Shown: positions 41,148 through 48,341 of the stretch, piece by piece | How the letters are laid out: each line of letters opens with the position of its first letter | Numbering within the stretch: the stretch's first letter is position 1 | Assembly (NCBI RefSeq): GCF_000429925.1 | Contig: NZ_AUCU01000037.1 | Coordinates: 1-48,341 of the forward strand | Reading direction: 5' to 3' | DNA length: 48,341 bases | Source: Desulfatirhabdium butyrativorans DSM 18734 | Lineage (GTDB): Bacteria; Desulfobacterota; Desulfobacteria; Desulfobacterales; Desulfatirhabdiaceae | The notes under the pieces: model-generated | What the model was told of the DNA's origin: nothing | Seen by the model: only the letters and a program-made list of their open reading frames with translations | Database searches by the model: none | Position numbers and translations under genes: made by a program

Positions 41148-42149
41148 TCATCCAGCCTGGAGATTCAATCCCAGTGCCGATCGAACCAGTTCCATGGTGG
41201 CGGCGGCCTCTTTGCGGGCCTTTTGCGTGCCTTCCCAGATGATGTCGGTTACCCGTTGCGGATCGGCCTCGAGGGCTTTTCGCTTTTCCCGAATCGGTTC
41301 CAGCCCGGCGATCAGATACTGCGCCATGCGCTTCTTGCATTCCACGCAGCCGATCTCGGCTTTCCGGCACGCCGGATCGATTTCCGCAACGACTTCCTCC
41401 GGGGAATAGAGTTTGTGGAATTCGAAGACATTGCAGATTTCCGGATTGCCCGGGTCTTTCCTTCTGGCCCGGTTCGGGTCCGTCACCATGGTGGAAACCT
41501 TGGCGGCGATTTCCTCGGGGCTGTCTGCCAGGAAGATGGCATTGTTGTAACTTTTGCTCATTTTCCGCCGATCGAGCCCCAGGATTTTGGAAGTCGGGGT
41601 CAGGATGGCCTGTGGTTCGGGGAAGACATTCCCATAAAGGAAATTGAACCGTCTGGCGATTTCCCGGGTGATTTCGACATGCGGCACCTGATCGACACCG
41701 ACCGGGACGGCATCGGCCCGATAGATGATGATGTCTGCCGCCTGCAGGACGGGATAGCCGAGAAAACCGAAGGTGGACAGGTCCTTGTTTTCGAGCTGGA
41801 CGATCTGGTCCTTGTAGGTCGGATTCCGTTCGAGCCAGGGAACGGGTGTGATCATGGAGAGCAGCAGAAACAGCTCGGCATGTTCCTTGACGAGCGACTG
41901 GACGAAAAGTGTCGATTTTTCGGGCAGAAGGCCCGCACTCAGCCAGTCGATCACCATCTCGCGGATGTATTCGGGAATGGATTTTGGATTTTCATAATCG
42001 CTGGTGAGGGCATGCCAGTCCGCCACAAAGAAAAAGCATTGATATTGTTCCTGAAGCCTGGCCCAGTTGACCAGCGCCCCGTGATAGTTGCCCAAGTGCA
42101 GCCGCCCGGTTGGCCGCATGCCGCTGAGCACCCGCCGTATTTCGGTCAT
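41148..42149 (-). CDS. trpS: Tryptophanyl-tRNA synthetase
   Basis: A 333-residue class Ic synthetase. The HIGH-type motif is RLHLGNYHGAL at the N-terminus, with GMRPTG just before it, and KMSKSYNN is the KMSKS loop. It contains a cysteine pair CRKAEIGCVECKK near residue 260-275 that could bind a metal. AAAGGAG precedes the start. It is the first gene of the long minus-strand block, 20 bases before lysS. Confidence 0.95.
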   Translation of the reverse strand: MTEIRRVLSGMRPTGRLHLGNYHGALVNWARLQEQYQCFFFVADWHALTSDYENPKSIPEYIREMVIDWLSAGLLPEKSTLFVQSLVKEHAELFLLLSMITPVPWLERNPTYKDQIVQLENKDLSTFGFLGYPVLQAADIIIYRADAVPVGVDQVPHVEITREIARRFNFLYGNVFPEPQAILTPTSKILGLDRRKMSKSYNNAIFLADSPEEIAAKVSTMVTDPNRARRKDPGNPEICNVFEFHKLYSPEEVVAEIDPACRKAEIGCVECKKRMAQYLIAGLEPIREKRKALEADPQRVTDIIWEGTQKARKEAAATMELVRSALGLNLQAG

Positions 42150-42193
42150 GATTCTGCAATCTCCTTTCGTATCGATGCCAATCGAAATTTTTC

Positions 42194-42222
42194 CTTTTAG
42201 CCCATTTTGCCCAAGGACTCAA
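42194..42222 (-). promoter_or_regulatory. Possible sigma-70-type promoter for the trpS-lysS-lol-bam block
   Basis: On the minus strand TTGAGT (-35) and TAAAAG (-10) are separated by 17 bases; each matches consensus at four of six positions. Transcription would begin about 40 bases upstream of trpS. A weak call by eye. Confidence 0.3.
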
Positions 42223-42434
42223 TCTTTAAAATGGTTAGGGCTGCTTGATCCTTCATTTGGATTGATCATTGGATGGCCAAGTGGCAGAGTTGCGGTGGAT
42301 ATTGGCAGCAACTCATCGTTTGTGATAGGGTTTTCTGGCGCGCCTCTGCCCGCCTGAATGCCTTCATGCGCAACTTGCGTTGCATTGCCGGATGAAGAAT
42401 CGGCAGAACAGATAGACCTTCAACAGGACAGCAA

Positions 42435-44360
42435 ATGAAAAGCCGAAAAAGAAAAACCCTCGCATGTTCAACCAGCCTGATCATCGCAACCGTCCTGCTG
42501 TTTCTTTGGATCACCAACAAGGGACAGCCTGCGGATATGCAAGGCGTTCTTGACAACACACTGCTGATCTTAAGCGCATTTGCAGTGATTGTTCTGATGT
42601 TTTTCATCTTCTTCGGTGATTTTTTTCATGACGACGGAACCATGCAAAAAAATCAGATCATCCTGATCCTGACGACAGTGATTTGCATCATTCAGGCTAC
42701 GCTGGCCTTTGCCGTATATTCGATGAAACAGCTTGAATTCGAGAATGAATCGCTGAACAAGGCCAAGGCCATTTTTGCCACCATCAAGCAGGATTTGTCC
42801 AAACCGGATTTCAGGCTTGCCACGATTCAGAAAACCGATGAAATCAGTTCGATCTACATCACCGATGATCAGAAACGAGTCATCATGGCCCAGAATGCCA
42901 GTCTGATCGGACGCGTCGTCGAGGTGGATCCGCTCCGTTCATACCGCTTTCCGCTTGGAAATCGGGTGGTGGTGATGGATATTTCGGCTGAGTATCAGCG
43001 AAAGATGGTCACGAATATTCTTCTCGATCTGCTGACGGTTCTGGTGGCATCCATCATTCTGACAGTGGAACTCATCCTCTTCATGATCCGATCGGTTGAA
43101 GACCGGTTTGATAGCACAACAAGAAACGCGGATCAGAAGGCAGCCATGATGACCGGTTATGTCAGACATATCGCCTTCTTTTTTTTCTTTGTCTCCCGGA
43201 TGGCTTCCACGTTTATCGCCCTGATCGCCAAAAACCTGGGTGGCAGTTTTTGGGGCATCAAGGATAATGTGCTTGCGGGTGTTCCACAATCTGCGGAATT
43301 CCTGCTTACCTGTGTTGCAATTTTTGCCACTTCGACGATAATCGAGAGAAAAGGCTGGAAAACATCCTTTACAGGAGGATTGCTGATCGTGGCCGGGGGA
43401 ACATTGCTGAGCGCTTTTTCCGCCCATATCCTGATGTTTATCGTTTCGCGGGCAGTAGTCGGTCTCGGATACGGCTTCTGCTGGATGACCTTGCGAAACT
43501 TCGCCCTCTTTACGAACAGCGACATGGAAAAAATCAACTGTTTTTCCATGCTGAACGCAGGAATATACGCAGGGATCATCTGCGGGGCGGTCACCGGCGC
43601 CGTACTTGCAGATATTCTGGGTTATCGGCTCGTACTGGTGGTGTCGGCCGTTTTGACAGCTTCATGTGTTCTTTCCATCAAAAGATTTCAGAACCTCTCT
43701 TACAGCCAGAGTTCAGTTGACGGCACAACATCGACGACAGGCCAGGGCGACATGGGCGGAAGATGCAACCAATTCAGAAAGGCCGGATTTCTGCATGTAC
43801 TGGTTTTCACCATACTGATGATTGTGCCATCCTGCATCATGGGATCTTATCTGAGCTATTACATTCCTATTTTTTTCAACGGTCTTGGCAAGCTCACCTC
43901 CGACATCGGACGCACGCAGCTTGTCTACGGGCTCGTCATCGTATACATCGGCCCCCACCTGATCCGTCTCATCCACAGACATCCCAATCTCTTCAACTGG
44001 AATATCGGATACAATATCCTGTTTTCCCTCGCGCTTACAGGGTTTGGATTATGGGGCGGGTTCATTCAGGCCATGCTCGTTGTATTTCTGCTGGGGATTG
44101 CCGACAGCTTTGGATTTGCCGTTCAGAACAACTACTTCCTGAATTTTGAATATGCGCGACTGACTGGAGAAAGCCATGCACTGTCATTGATCAGTTTGAT
44201 CAAAAAGCTGGCGGAAATGTTGGGTCCGATCGCCTTTGGCCTGACCTTTCTCTCCAGCGGATTCAACGGCATTACCGTCATGGGGTTCGTTTTTCTGGGC
44301 GCAACGATTCTTTACGTTTTCATTTCAAAAGGATGGCGAAATCATTCCCAATTGGCATAA
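42435..44360 (+). CDS. MFS transporter with N-terminal sensor-like membrane module
   Basis: A 641-residue membrane protein. Hydrophobic helices at about 10-27, 41-61 and 75-97 precede a roughly 95-residue extracytoplasmic segment (98-190), which has a Cache/PAS-like feel (SSIYITDDQKRVIMAQNASLIGR, FPLGNRVVVMDIS). Another helix follows (191-217). Residues 243-636 form a twelve-helix major facilitator domain (GIYAGIICGAVTGAVLADILGYR is the MFS motif region). AGGA lies upstream of ATG 42435. The fusion of a ligand-sensing module to a transporter is unusual. The ATP-grasp gene follows after 29 bases. Codons are AT-richer than in the adjacent trpS-lysS block. Confidence 0.75.
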   Translation: MKSRKRKTLACSTSLIIATVLLFLWITNKGQPADMQGVLDNTLLILSAFAVIVLMFFIFFGDFFHDDGTMQKNQIILILTTVICIIQATLAFAVYSMKQLEFENESLNKAKAIFATIKQDLSKPDFRLATIQKTDEISSIYITDDQKRVIMAQNASLIGRVVEVDPLRSYRFPLGNRVVVMDISAEYQRKMVTNILLDLLTVLVASIILTVELILFMIRSVEDRFDSTTRNADQKAAMMTGYVRHIAFFFFFVSRMASTFIALIAKNLGGSFWGIKDNVLAGVPQSAEFLLTCVAIFATSTIIERKGWKTSFTGGLLIVAGGTLLSAFSAHILMFIVSRAVVGLGYGFCWMTLRNFALFTNSDMEKINCFSMLNAGIYAGIICGAVTGAVLADILGYRLVLVVSAVLTASCVLSIKRFQNLSYSQSSVDGTTSTTGQGDMGGRCNQFRKAGFLHVLVFTILMIVPSCIMGSYLSYYIPIFFNGLGKLTSDIGRTQLVYGLVIVYIGPHLIRLIHRHPNLFNWNIGYNILFSLALTGFGLWGGFIQAMLVVFLLGIADSFGFAVQNNYFLNFEYARLTGESHALSLISLIKKLAEMLGPIAFGLTFLSSGFNGITVMGFVFLGATILYVFISKGWRNHSQLA

Positions 44361-44389
44361 GGCATCATGCAAGCGAAAGAGGCGTTTCG

Positions 44390-45322
44390 ATGAACATAGC
44401 AGTTGTCCACGGAGGCACTTCCACGGAAAGTGCAATCTCCTCGAAAAATGCGCATTACATCAGAGCCGCGCTTGCAGAAAACGGTCATAACGCCTTTATG
44501 CTGACGTTTGATGAAAATACCTACCTGACACTTCACGCTCAAAGGCCCGACCTTGTCTTCATCGCCGTACAGGGGAAACATCACGGCGACGGGACCATGC
44601 AGTCCATCTGCGAGATACTCAAAATTCCCTATACGGGTTCGAAAGCTGCGGCAGCAGCCCTGATCAATAACAAATTTTATTGCAAATCAATATGTTCCTA
44701 TCATCATATCCGGACACCCGAATATCTCCATTTGTCCATGCAGGCGTTTTTCGGAACCCCGCGCCGGGAAATCATCCGGGAAATCGAGAGAAAAATGCGT
44801 CTCCCGGTTGTCGCGAAAGCCGTATCCCAGGGCGGCAGTTTTGGAATCGAACTGATTCAAACCTGGGATGACTATGACTTGATCGCAAAGACCTTTGAAT
44901 TTGATAACGAGATCATTATCGAACGTTTCATCCGGGGGAAACCTGTCACCACAGCTATCCTGGAAATTCAACGTCGGCCGACACCGTTGGCAACCCTGAC
45001 ATGTTTTAACGTGGACCAGCCGAAAGATGGCTTATTTTTATTCAATCGACCATTCCTGGCCAAACCGGAAGAATATCCCAAGAATATGCTTGCGGAAATC
45101 GAACATACTGCGTTAAAGGCCTTCCATCTCCTCGGGGCAAAAAACTACGCAAGGGTTGATTTCATGGTCGAGGATGAAACCGGTTTGCCCTATTTCCTGG
45201 AAATCAATGCTGTTCCAGGTTTGAAGCCGGAAAGTTTCTTCCCGCAGGCCGCCAGAATATCCGGTATTTCCCTGAGCGAGCTGATCAGGATCATTACCGA
45301 AAACGAAATATCGATTGCCTGA
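44390..45322 (+). CDS. D-Ala-D-Ala-ligase-like ATP-grasp enzyme
   Basis: A 310-residue ATP-grasp ligase. Family motifs in order: GGTSTESAIS (the GGxSxExxVS of Ddl), QGKHHGDGTMQ (HGxxGEDGxxQ in Ddl, here altered), YTGSKAAAAALINNKFYCK, PVVAKAVSQGGSFGIELI, ERFIRGKPVTTAIL and ARVDFMVEDETGLPYFLEINAVPG with the metal-binding Glu and Asn. It could ligate D-Ala-D-Ala, but the altered HGxxGEDG motif and the transporter/phosphatase neighbours suggest another amino-acid ligation. ATG 44390 has AAGAGG upstream. The stop TGA is shared with the left end of a MITE-like element at 45315. Confidence 0.82.
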   Translation: MNIAVVHGGTSTESAISSKNAHYIRAALAENGHNAFMLTFDENTYLTLHAQRPDLVFIAVQGKHHGDGTMQSICEILKIPYTGSKAAAAALINNKFYCKSICSYHHIRTPEYLHLSMQAFFGTPRREIIREIERKMRLPVVAKAVSQGGSFGIELIQTWDDYDLIAKTFEFDNEIIIERFIRGKPVTTAILEIQRRPTPLATLTCFNVDQPKDGLFLFNRPFLAKPEEYPKNMLAEIEHTALKAFHLLGAKNYARVDFMVEDETGLPYFLEINAVPGLKPESFFPQAARISGISLSELIRIITENEISIA

Positions 45323-45442
45323 ACGAAAAACCCCTGTTTGGAGCAGTGCGCCGCCTGCGGGCAGGCAATTTTGCGATGCAGCGTGAAACAGCCCGCCCTC
45401 CGGCTCAGTTTGTACCCAAAACGGGTTTTCCGTTCAGCCACT
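45315..45442. mobile_element. MITE-like inverted-repeat element, 128-bp version
   Basis: Ends TTGCCTGAACGAAAAACCCC and GGGTTTTCCGTTCAGCCACTA are inverted repeats. The arms are GGAGCAGTGCGCCGCCTGCG and CGGCTCAGTTTGTACCCAAA, with a centre containing TTTTGCGATGCAGCGTG. It is the clearest complete copy and the reference for the shorter derivatives. It supplies the stop codon of the ATP-grasp gene. Confidence 0.85.
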
Positions 45443-45504
45443 ATCCAACAAAGGCGGCAAATGGCTGTAATGGGGTCCCCACTCGGAGAGCGGGAAATGC
45501 GGCC

Positions 45505-45604
45505 ATTATTCCGTAGAAAGCCGGAATCCAGTTTTACAACCACGGGAGTATGACCGGTTCCGGACCCCTCCTGCCGGAGACAGGATTTCGACGGGGTGAC
45601 GGGC
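45505..45604. repeat. Paired CCGGAATCC element, 100 bp
   Basis: Left AAGCCGGAATCCAGTTTT, internal CCGGTTCCGGACCC, right TTTCGACGGGGTGACGGGCC. Same ends as 13650-13735. Confidence 0.75.
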
Positions 45605-45612
45605 CACGGGAA

Positions 45613-45652
45613 TTTCGATTACGATGGCGATTACGACAACGACAACGATTAT
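45613..45652. repeat. Short hexamer array upstream of the phosphatase gene
   Basis: About seven hexamers (CGATTA, CGATGG, CGACAA), ending 67 bases before the SpoIIE-type phosphatase start. Confidence 0.88.
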
Positions 45653-45718
45653 ACCCGGCGTTGCGGGGAGAGGCCTTTTCACGATGAAAACCAGCAACCG
45701 GATATCAAGCAGGGCGTT

Positions 45719-47863
45719 ATGAAAAACTTCATGAGAAATTTGCGAATCGGAACGAAAATATTGGCTGTCATTCTGATTGTCTCGTTGTTTTCCCTGTTTT
45801 TCGTATCGGCGGTTTCCTATATCGAAATGCTGAATCTGACCAGATATTCCACAGATGCCAATACAAGGCTTGGCATCAATTCATCGGAAAAATCCAGAGA
45901 AGCACTCAAGGCCCAGGCAGAGGAATATATTGTCAAAATTGCCAGGGAACAGGCTTTGAAATGTGACGCGACGCTGGCCAAAGTACAGAGCGAGGTGTCT
46001 TCCGTTGCCGATTATCTGACATCGCTTTACCGGAACAGGGGAAATTTCAAAGGCCGTAAACTGCCGATGGTGCAGGAAACCGTAATGGGGCAGGCCAGTT
46101 CGAAATATATGCTTGCGCCCAAAGTCACCCGAACACCTGAGTTGGAGAAGGAACTTCTCCTGATCAGCAATGCGGAATATGTGTGCGCTCCGGTTTTCAC
46201 AAGCAATCCGATATTGAACAATATCTACTTGGGAACAACAACAGGAATTTCCTACCGGTATTCCAGGTCGAACGCCTACAATCCCGAGTACGATCCAAGG
46301 GAGCGCGGCTGGTATAAAAGCGCCATGCTGAACCCGAATCTGCCTGTATGGGTGGATACCTATCTGGACACCTATGGTTCAATCTGTGTGACCACTTCCA
46401 GGACATTTGCAGATCAAACCGGCCGACCCCGGGGCGTGGTCGCTTCGGATATCACCCTCAAAAGCATGCAGGATGATATTCTATCCATGAAAATCGGCAA
46501 AACGGGATATGCGTTTTTGCTGGATAACACCGGGAAAATCATTGCACATCCCCAATATGGAGAAGGACTGGACACCAAGCCCCTGGAAAATGCAACCGGA
46601 GATTACAGGCTGGCAATCCAGAACATTGTCGAGAACCGGGAGGGTCTGACAACCGCGCATATTGACGGCAAGCTGTCTTATATCGCCTATTCTAAATTTC
46701 CGACAACCGGATGGTCCCTTGCCATCGTTATGGAAGTTGCCGAAATTATCCGGCCTGCCGAAGAAACCAGAATGCAGATCGAGGAATATACATCGGAAGC
46801 CCAAACCTATATCACGAAGACACTGAGCAGCGTCCTGATCCGGCTCGTCGTCATACTGGCCGTTTCCGCGATGGTGATCCTCGTATTATCCTATCTGATT
46901 TCAAAAACCATCACCACACCCGTCAAACAGCTTGTCGAAAGGGTTACCAGCATCGGCAAAGGGGATTTGGATGTATGGATAGATGACCATGGAAAGGATG
47001 AAATCGCCGAACTGGCCAGAGCCTTCAATAAAATGACAGGCGATCTGAAAACCTATATCGCCAACCTCTCCAGGATAACGGCCGAAAAGGAAAGAATCAG
47101 CGCCGAACTCGACGTGGCCAGAAAGATCCAGGAAAGCATGCTGCCATGTATTTTCCCACCTTTTCCGGAAAGGGATGATTTTGAGATTTTTGCAACCATG
47201 ATTCCGGCCAAGGAAGTGGGAGGCGATTTCTATGATTTCTTTTTGGTGGACGAGGATCATCTGGCAGTCGTCATAGCCGATGTTTCGGGCAAAGGAGTTT
47301 CGGCTGCTCTATTCATGGTGATTTCCAAAACCCTTATCCAGAACAACGCACAATCAGGCAAACGGCCCGGAGATGTTTTCGAAACGGTAAACAACCAGCT
47401 CTGCAAAAACAACGGGGCGGATATGTTTGTCACCGCCTTTATGGGGATCCTGCAAATCAGCACAGGAGAATTTGTGTACGCAAATGCTGGACACAATCCG
47501 CCTTTACTGAAAAAAAATAATGGGGAATTTCAATGGCTGCCAACGGAACCGGGTTTTGTTCTGGCAAGCATGGAAGATTTCCGGTTCACTGAAAAGCGAA
47601 CACGGCTCGGTGAAGGAGACGTGCTGTTTCTCTATACGGATGGCGTAACCGAAGCGGCGAATACAGACAATGACCTGTACTCGGACAGTCGTTTGATTCA
47701 GGAGCTGAATGCCAACAAGGATCGAAATGTCATCGATCTGTTGAAATCGGTCAGGGCCAGTATTGCCGGCTTCGCGGGAGAGGCGGAGCAGTCCGATGAC
47801 ATCACGATGCTGGCCCTGAGCATTGGTAAAAAGCCAAATATTGCTTCAATGCCATCGACTTGA
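45719..47863 (+). CDS. Cache-HAMP-SpoIIE (PP2C) serine phosphatase
   Basis: A 714-residue membrane receptor phosphatase. Helix 11-33, a periplasmic double-Cache domain about 50-365, helix 373-394, HAMP about 395-450, a linker helix, and a SpoIIE/PP2C domain 475-702. Metal ligands are Asp503 (GGDFYDF), Asp521 (ADVSGKG), Asp641 (YTDGVTEA) and Asp693/694 (SDDITM). In the Cache domain Tyr191, Arg196, Trp198, Tyr199 and Asp244 (SDIT) fall at the spacing of the amino-acid-binding dCache motif (Y, R, W, Y, D of PctA). It probably dephosphorylates an anti-sigma-antagonist; none is encoded here. The start at ATG 45719 lacks a strong site; ATG 45731 is possible. Confidence 0.9.
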   Translation: MKNFMRNLRIGTKILAVILIVSLFSLFFVSAVSYIEMLNLTRYSTDANTRLGINSSEKSREALKAQAEEYIVKIAREQALKCDATLAKVQSEVSSVADYLTSLYRNRGNFKGRKLPMVQETVMGQASSKYMLAPKVTRTPELEKELLLISNAEYVCAPVFTSNPILNNIYLGTTTGISYRYSRSNAYNPEYDPRERGWYKSAMLNPNLPVWVDTYLDTYGSICVTTSRTFADQTGRPRGVVASDITLKSMQDDILSMKIGKTGYAFLLDNTGKIIAHPQYGEGLDTKPLENATGDYRLAIQNIVENREGLTTAHIDGKLSYIAYSKFPTTGWSLAIVMEVAEIIRPAEETRMQIEEYTSEAQTYITKTLSSVLIRLVVILAVSAMVILVLSYLISKTITTPVKQLVERVTSIGKGDLDVWIDDHGKDEIAELARAFNKMTGDLKTYIANLSRITAEKERISAELDVARKIQESMLPCIFPPFPERDDFEIFATMIPAKEVGGDFYDFFLVDEDHLAVVIADVSGKGVSAALFMVISKTLIQNNAQSGKRPGDVFETVNNQLCKNNGADMFVTAFMGILQISTGEFVYANAGHNPPLLKKNNGEFQWLPTEPGFVLASMEDFRFTEKRTRLGEGDVLFLYTDGVTEAANTDNDLYSDSRLIQELNANKDRNVIDLLKSVRASIAGFAGEAEQSDDITMLALSIGKKPNIASMPST

Positions 47864-47892
47864 GCTCTTCAGCGGGTTGATCTGACACTATA

Positions 47893-47936
47893 CGGCAGTG
47901 GGCAGTGGGCAGTCGGCAGTGGGCAGTGGGCAGTGT
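47893..47936. repeat. GGCAGTG heptamer array after the phosphatase gene
   Basis: Six heptamers (GGCAGTG, GGCAGTC) starting 30 bases after the stop, with the G-rich strand on the coding strand (G3N4 units). Confidence 0.9.
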
Positions 47937-47970
47937 CGTAGCGCGGCTGTCATGTCGCCACACTCTTACG

Positions 47971-48130
<160 letters not shown>

Positions 48131-48228
48131 ATCCTACATTCCACACCCCTCCGCAGGTGCGAAGGGATAATTTTCTGACCTATCTTTTTTCTGGACTCTG
48201 CTCATAGAATGTGGTAAAAGGGTTGGCC

Positions 48229-48341
48229 ATGAAAGTGCCAACTCTCATTCAAAGCCGTCTGATTACCGACGGGGATATTGATTTTGTCCGTGAACTGATC
48301 GAACAAAATCCTTCCTGGAGTCGGTATCGGTTGAGCCGGGA
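48229..48341 (+). CDS. DUF4338 (DruA-like) protein, 5' end only
   Basis: Thirty-seven codons from ATG 48229 to the window edge: LIQSRLITDGDIDFVRELIE then QNPSWSRYRLSR. The spacing of an acidic helix followed by N/HP.WSR..LSR matches the N-terminus of DUF4338 proteins, a family that includes the Druantia defence protein DruA and transposase-like genes. Which of the two cannot be told from this fragment. The upstream bases show no strong ribosome-binding site (GGTTGG). Confidence 0.6.
   Translation, partial: MKVPTLIQSRLITDGDIDFVRELIEQNPSWSRYRLSR

Follow-up and report, generated by a model that had tools for sequence, protein, structure and literature searches.

A sensor-fused transporter, a Ddl-like ligase and a SpoIIE phosphatase in Desulfatirhabdium butyrativorans: a locus that looks like a reduced version of a widespread amino-acid-centred module

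Introduction

The window analysed here is a stretch of 48,341 nt from Desulfatirhabdium butyrativorans DSM 18734 and comprises an entire contig (NZ_AUCU01000037.1, C23) of the assembly GCF_000429925.1 (G000; 73 contigs, 4.48 Mb, 97.3% complete). ORF calling yields three intact open reading frames (ORFs) on its plus strand, encoding a transporter of the major facilitator superfamily (MFS) fused to a periplasmic sensor segment (sensor-MFS), a Ddl-like ATP-grasp ligase, and a dCache-HAMP-SpoIIE phosphatase; they lie where an original prediction, made from the letters of the sequence, had placed three same-strand genes (42435-47863), and the contig terminates 478 nt past the phosphatase stop (Table 1). 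Sensor-MFS genes of other genomes are associated with amino-acid enzymes in a recurring module, and the window trio looks like an unusual, divergent, and reduced version of it. The chances are about even that the trio works as such a reduced member, in which the ligase would make a conjugate, the sensor-gated MFS would export it, and the phosphatase would sense an amino acid.

The sensor-MFS module in other genomes

Loci were gathered around 39 sensor-MFS positions in genomes of the same order (L071-L109), and 51 more came from a second search with the MFS sequence only (L121-L171), the latter including Desulfobacterales, Syntrophobacteraceae, Desulfovibrionaceae (Desulfovibrio piger, Mailhella), SAR324, Candidatus Competibacter, other Gammaproteobacteria, and a Sutterella bin. 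The sulfate reducers Desulfosarcina cetonica (L122) and Desulfonema magnum also harbor the gene. After removal of genes sharing a 60-residue stretch and of the second ORFs in L098 and L170, 77 non-redundant sensor-MFS genes including that of the window remained, close relatives still among them; L137, L149, and L157 gave no sensor-MFS ORF in gene calling and stand outside this set. Neighboring families were named from representatives via Pfam and NCBIfam, with SpoIIE counted by its catalytic domain. The term isomerase covers DapF-like, Orr-like, and alanine racemase proteins, and the term conjugating enzyme covers GCS2-like, Ddl-like, and AstA-like proteins together with c2, a family of 530 aa (e.g. 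L125:3928-5526).

The usual order is Cache-HAMP-SpoIIE, isomerase, sensor-MFS, c2, and a TrpX-like binding protein, with the positions of isomerase, binding protein, and phosphatase varying and sometimes falling on the opposite strand. Within 4.5 kb of the 77 genes, the most frequent neighbors are TrpX-like proteins (ABC_sub_bind, 57), c2 (34), SpoIIE (25), and DapF-like and Orr-like proteins (22 each), followed by the rarer clusters and families c8 (8), Ddl-like (5), GCS2-like (5), c22 (4), alanine racemase (3), and AstA-like (3). An isomerase is found near 45/77 genes, a conjugating enzyme near 47/77, both near 36/77, and at least one of the two near 56/77. Distance served as a control, comparing ORFs at ≤4.5 kb (511) with those beyond 4.5 kb (360) in the same loci, the window excluded. 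DapF-like (22/511 vs 0/360), Orr-like (22/511 vs 0/360), and c2 ORFs (36/511 vs 0/360) occur only on the near side; SpoIIE is enriched as well (25/511 vs 6/360, p 0.014; within 1.5 kb 17/221 vs 6/360, p 0.0006), with p values of this control that are flattering, because the enzyme families were picked from those seen near the MFS.

The DapF-like ORFs (27) conserve both Cys motifs, CGNG and ACGTG, in at least 85% of rows, and in one locus (L085:3840-7475) a DapF-like epimerase and the sensor-MFS are fused into a single protein of 1212 aa. The literature searched, which largely lacks subscription papers, gave no published description of the sensor-MFS module. As a separate observation, a gene of the FlhB/YscU family stands upstream of the module in L161 (4517-5572; Pfam Bac_export_2, tested in this locus only), with ORFs of the same cluster in L155, L159, L160, and L165 (Desulfovibrionaceae).

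The original prediction had asked for co-occurrence of the three window families. What recurs in many genomes is a combination of sensor-MFS, amino-acid enzyme, and Cache-SpoIIE; for transporter and ligase of the window, the genomes searched yielded no close ortholog. Sensor-MFS, Ddl-like ligase, and SpoIIE come together once more, in L078, and nowhere else among the loci. Judged by sequence searches, the exact window trio appears unique so far among the genomes covered.

The slot after the transporter

The gene position following the MFS is taken by putative amino-acid-conjugating enzymes of varying kind, and the window ligase agrees with this pattern. Its homology begins at ATG 44390, 29 nt from the MFS stop codon, so that MFS and ligase are probably co-transcribed, and the window MFS thereby shares the module trait of a nearby conjugating enzyme. 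Four further loci (L071, L078, L098, and L142) combine a sensor-MFS with a Ddl-like ligase. In L098, a racemase gene comes first, then sensor and MFS on separate ORFs, then the ligase, which directly follows the MFS as in the window; its Cache protein is a chemoreceptor and not a phosphatase. At the position of the Ddl motif HGxxGEDG, L071 and L078 read HGRNGAGG, L098 reads DGPVGTDG, L142 lacks the motif, and the window reads QGKHHGDG. The motif Glu is thus found in 0/5 module ligases vs 29/29 Ddls of relatives (p 4e-6, with no correction for L071 and L078 being related).

The commonest gene after the MFS is c2. Pfam gave no match at E <0.03 in 20 members, and Foldseek returned nothing below E 0.3. 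Structure comparison of a c2 model (pLDDT 93) revealed resemblance to BshC (Z 16.8 over 371 residues) and to class I lysyl-tRNA synthetase (Z 13.5 over 286 residues), the next rows reaching Z ≤6.4. BshC is the cysteine-adding enzyme of bacillithiol synthesis. From the model, c2 is read as an enzyme with a class I synthetase-like fold that may activate or add an amino acid. In L097, L099, L100, and L104, a protein of 409-415 aa (cluster c22) directly follows the sensor-MFS; its 409-aa form has no Pfam or PDB match.

The Ddl-like ligase

The window ligase matches Dala_Dala_lig_C (4e-30) and Dala_Dala_lig_N (3e-12) in Pfam, and the 34 solved structures matching it at E≤1e-10 all bear the names of Ddl, Van, or D-Ala-D-Lac ligases. 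It scores below both curated Ddl cut-offs, with 202.9 bits for NF002378 (cut-off 243) and 173.1 bits for TIGR01205 (cut-off 245.65). A canonical Ddl with the motif HGPYGEDG is encoded elsewhere in the genome (L110, contig C1) and reaches 356.9 and 305.1 bits with the same models. Together with the failed cut-offs, this rules out that the window ligase is the sole housekeeping Ddl, an outcome against which the original prediction would not have stood.

As had been predicted, QGKHHGDG (residues 61-68) replaces HGxxGEDG. The latter is present in all 29 Ddl-like best matches of relatives, i.e. those fetched out of 50 relatives with a match. H and E of this motif belong to the first D-Ala site. A second change, YEAKY to FNRPF, is seen in the alignment; the YEAKY loop is detected by a simple pattern in 23/29 of the relatives' Ddls. 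The accessible part of a study of BpDdl calls Lys220 of the omega loop a strictly conserved substrate Lys (PMC6899670), and its equivalent is placed here, by our own reading, in YEAKY. The nucleotide- and Mg-binding residues of the ATP-grasp fold (K143, E178, D257, E271, N273) are invariant over nine aligned proteins including the window ligase, which retains R255 as well as D257 (window numbering). Its ATP site being intact, a broken Ddl is not favored. The residue changes suggest an altered first substrate, other than D-alanine.

A search of plasmids for close kin of the ligase was fruitless: 587 plasmid records match, every one with <60% identity, and six of the ten matches listed are annotated ddlB. 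In the same genome, a further Ddl-like gene devoid of HGxxGEDG (L111:8239-9303) lies one small ORF from a tRNA-guanine transglycosylase gene. Another locus (L112, G000:C66:185421-187259) encodes a protein of 679 aa with two tandem Ddl-like ATP-grasp stretches, likewise devoid of HGxxGEDG; such paired stretches also match in all seven genomes of the same family (G001-G007), where the open frames measure 549-1057 aa.

The sensor-fused MFS transporter

The transporter (Pfam MFS_1, 9.4e-17) belongs to a family whose layout, in an alignment of 19 proteins from which helix positions were read, is transmembrane helix (TM), periplasmic domain, TM, TM, second periplasmic domain, TM, MFS. The window protein keeps the second periplasmic domain, fused to the MFS domain. 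The extra extracytoplasmic segment of the original prediction is borne out by an AlphaFold2 model (mean pLDDT 80) with a helix at residues 72-120, four strands within 137-183, and a helix at 185-226, followed by the helical MFS domain. Pfam gave no Cache match for the sensor segment of the window protein; among 30 family members, sCache_3_2 and dCache_1 were each matched in two, with E values up to 0.1. Structure comparison of residues 231-641 places the MFS fold nearest to VMAT2, G6PT, and NorA (Z 36-38 over 368-386 residues), and a profile of the family retrieves VMAT and NorA first, if weakly (E 2e-4 to 4e-3). This likeness to antiporters favors an exporter.

Table 1. Features at the end of the window, with positions counted from its first letter.
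Feature	Position	Strand	Evidence
Sensor-fused MFS transporter, 641 aa	42435..44360	+	ORF; MFS_1 9.4e-17; homologues in the order; AlphaFold2 model; fold comparison
Periplasmic PAS/Cache-like sensor segment, residues ~95-196, ahead of the last helix into the MFS domain	42717..43022	+	AlphaFold2, alignment
Ddl-like ATP-grasp ligase, 310 aa	44390..45322 (longer ORF from 44333)	+	Pfam, NCBIfam
QGKHHGDG replacing HGxxGEDG, ligase residues 61-68	44570..44593	+	alignment
Gap between ligase and phosphatase ATG, 396 nt, 56.3% G+C	45323..45718	+	composition
dCache-HAMP-SpoIIE phosphatase, stop at 47863	45719..47863 (alternative GTG start 45596)	+	Pfam, motifs
Amino-acid motif Y191 R196 W198 Y199 Y215 D244 of the dCache_1 domain	46289..46450	+	published motif
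Two arrays of 7-base repeats close to the contig end, GGCAGTG x6 and GGAGTCA x19	47894..48104	+	repeat search

The phosphatase and its amino-acid motif

The third gene encodes SpoIIE (2e-49, 168 bits), dCache_1 (3e-24), and HAMP (5e-13) domains according to Pfam. The phosphatase domain contains EVGGDFYD, ADVSGKGV, YTDGVTEA, and DDITML, which we take to be the usual motifs of SpoIIE phosphatases. The dCache_1AA motif, as given in the accessible text on PctA, consists of Y121, R126, W128, Y129, Y144, and D173 and contacts a single amino acid through its amino and carboxyl groups (PMC9796306). All six residues are present in the window phosphatase (Y191, R196, W198, Y199, Y215, D244; numbered from ATG 45719): Tyr191, Arg196, Trp198, Tyr199, and Asp244 had been named correctly in the original prediction, and Tyr215 takes the place of Y144 of PctA as the sixth. 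Counted from the first residue, the others stand at +5, +7, +8, +24 (PctA +23), and +53 (PctA +52), so that the fourth and fifth motif residues are spaced one position wider than in PctA. By this motif, the phosphatase probably reads an extracellular free amino acid. Among the loci of the 12 SpoIIE matches in the genome, the window copy is the only one to fit a relaxed pattern of the motif, some of the others possibly having no dCache domain or a truncated one.

It had been proposed that one amino acid or dipeptide serves all three proteins. An amino-acid-centred system is backed by the module elsewhere, and a single shared ligand stays a guess, since the motif needs an amino and a carboxyl group on one carbon, a feature absent from ordinary dipeptides.

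An alternative that can be entertained tentatively confines the unit to MFS and ligase, as an exporter pair for a dipeptide or amino-acid conjugate, and regards the phosphatase as an independent amino-acid sensor located downstream by chance. The gap of 396 nt in front of the phosphatase ATG makes a single operon likely for MFS and ligase only, and its G+C content of 56.3% matches the contig and not the genes; MFS and ligase are separated by 29 nt. The genome has 12 SpoIIE matches, SpoIIE is found near no more than 25/77 sensor-MFS genes, and the amino-acid motif occurs in 0/31 ORFs of the phosphatase cluster c3 of other module loci (duplicates and two partial ORFs included). This alternative is countered by the enrichment of SpoIIE beside sensor-MFS genes described above, by L078, where the Ddl-like ligase and a Cache-SpoIIE gene are 6 nt apart, and by a low G+C content common to all three window genes (48.2-48.5%). 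Module membership of the trio is carried more by the transporter family and its paired ligase than by the phosphatase.

Composition and possible acquisition

The G+C content amounts to 48.9% over 42151-47863 vs 58.2% over 1-42150, where the lowest of 73 segments of 5.7 kb has 55.1%. A scan for promoters and terminators in 42100-48341 showed no excess over shuffles. The low G+C content that led to the idea of acquisition is thus real, and acquisition agrees with it and with the missing close match in same-family genomes, by which it is not established. Seven such genomes, some of them incomplete, have no close match, and one (G005) carries a distant sensor-MFS.

The window trio weighed as a module member

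The interpretation of the trio as a reduced module member has to be set against a number of findings, of which the composition of the ligase-phosphatase gap and the minority of sensor-MFS genes (25/77) with a SpoIIE neighbor were given above. Among the named families, only the Ddl-like ligase and SpoIIE occur within 4.5 kb of the window MFS, and an isomerase, c2, and a TrpX-like gene are missing there; the assembly as a whole gave no c2 or TrpX-like match in a search that had no positive control in this genome. The window MFS lacks the first periplasmic domain (641 aa vs ~820 aa in the alignment). In an MFS-domain tree, which was a quick one without bootstraps and excluded short or broken rows of L098, L134, L150, L162, and L171, its branch is very long, at 4.57 changes per column, and has no supported placement. 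Close orthologs were not found for transporter and ligase: a genome_contigs search with the MFS gave 29 candidate stretches, none confirmed, and outside its own genome the 641-aa protein has distant matches only. These occur in 44 of 291 genomes of the order at E≤1e-20 (45 with its own; mainly open frames of 700-900 aa) and, in a search of 395 genomes of the phylum at E 1e-30, in 9 genomes besides its own. The ligase finds two other genomes of 281 at E≤1e-34, with 30-33% identity, and both proteins (L012, L184) are canonical Ddls by motif. HGxxGEDG is also missing from L111 and L112 of the same genome, which lie outside any such locus, so that its loss marks divergence from Ddl and not the module.

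Other points concern the module itself. In 21/77 loci there is no named isomerase or conjugating enzyme, some of these carrying c22 or c8 proteins or sitting on short contigs. Ddl-like ORFs taken alone are not significantly concentrated near the MFS (4/511 near vs 0/360 far, p 0.15). The comparison of c2 with one BshC by hhalign gave a probability of 0.2 and thus no link at the sequence level, which leaves the predicted fold as the ground for this likeness.

Some of these features, namely the long MFS branch and the missing first sensor domain, along with the low G+C content and the contig end with its repeats, would also suit a decaying or fast-drifting acquired fragment of little function, which is highly improbable given three intact ORFs, the retained ATP-site residues of the ligase, and the retained phosphatase and six-residue sensor motifs.

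Comparison with known systems

Bacilysin biosynthesis includes BacD and BacE, a pair of dipeptide ligase and exporter, to which the window is similar in that an ATP-grasp amino-acid ligase adjoins an MFS exporter. It differs in a ligase that is Ddl-like, its best relatives among solved structures being named Ddl, in an exporter with a periplasmic sensor, and in the sensor phosphatase that follows. The D-cycloserine cluster contains the ATP-grasp protein DcsG and the MFS protein DcsJ. Its racemase is DcsC, according to the accessible text (PMC8225329). L071 and L078 resemble this cluster, as they combine DapF-like, Ddl-like ATP-grasp, and MFS proteins; the window has no adjacent DapF-like gene, and sensor domains, SpoIIE, and a binding protein are added in comparison with the cluster. 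On this basis, the module might make and export a toxic amino-acid analogue or a dipeptide antibiotic, or protect against one. Although the closeness of the MFS fold to NorA and VMAT2 would agree, this is unlikely: to our knowledge, the bacilysin and D-cycloserine clusters have neither an exporter with periplasmic sensors nor an orphan binding protein, the module ligases miss Ddl residues, so that they are unlikely to be spare Ddl copies, and the DapF-like gene that the comparison calls for is not found beside the window genes.

Peptide-ligase operons that encode class I synthetase-like enzymes together with efflux transporters and periplasmic binding proteins have been described and were proposed to serve the production of signals or siderophores (PMC2922099). 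Common to both are amino-acid ligases that differ in fold and replace one another next to an exporter and a binding protein; a sensor-fused MFS does not appear in the accessible text of that paper, nor do the words 'MFS' and 'racemase'. With the dCache_1AA receptors such as PctA, as far as the accessible texts describe them, the window phosphatase shares all six residues at a spacing longer by one residue (PMC9796306, PMC11245519, PMC10104139); in contrast to these receptors, its binding is predicted, and the other module phosphatases examined do not show the motif. From Ddl, whose family fold, ATP-site residues, R255, and D257 it has, the window ligase is distinguished by scores below both cut-offs, by QGKHHGDG and FNRPF, and by the canonical Ddl elsewhere in the genome.

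Proposed function and significance

For the trio as a reduced module member, the following mechanism is proposed. The altered Ddl-like ligase would couple, at the expense of ATP, an amino acid with another amino-acid-like molecule, its first substrate being other than D-alanine. The MFS domain, with its fold nearest to drug, amine, and related antiporters, would carry the product outward, and the periplasmic sensor domain of the transporter may tune or gate this transport. The dCache-SpoIIE phosphatase is expected to sense a free periplasmic amino acid and may alter gene expression by dephosphorylation of an anti-sigma antagonist (partner switching). The domains, the residue changes, and the recurring neighborhood are established by the data; ligase activity and product, export direction, gating, and partner switching, as well as a place of the phosphatase in the same pathway, are deduced.

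A wider proposal, which is doubtful as a whole, would make the module an undescribed class of communication or environment-probing systems. Interchangeable enzymes (racemases, BshC-like c2, GCS2-like, Ddl-like, and AstA-like proteins) would produce modified amino acids or isopeptides that differ between lineages, a cargo-sensing, transceptor-like transporter would release them, and orphan binding proteins and Cache-SpoIIE would read them and switch expression; the window trio would then be the dialect of one lineage, equipped with an amino-acid receptor.

If the proposed function holds true, one cassette would link how a small metabolite is made, exported, and sensed. New ligase specificities can be predicted from the Ddl-like enzymes that recur without the motif Glu. 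Since family members occur in gut bacteria (Desulfovibrio piger, Mailhella) as well as other sulfate reducers, the product could be sought in culturable hosts.

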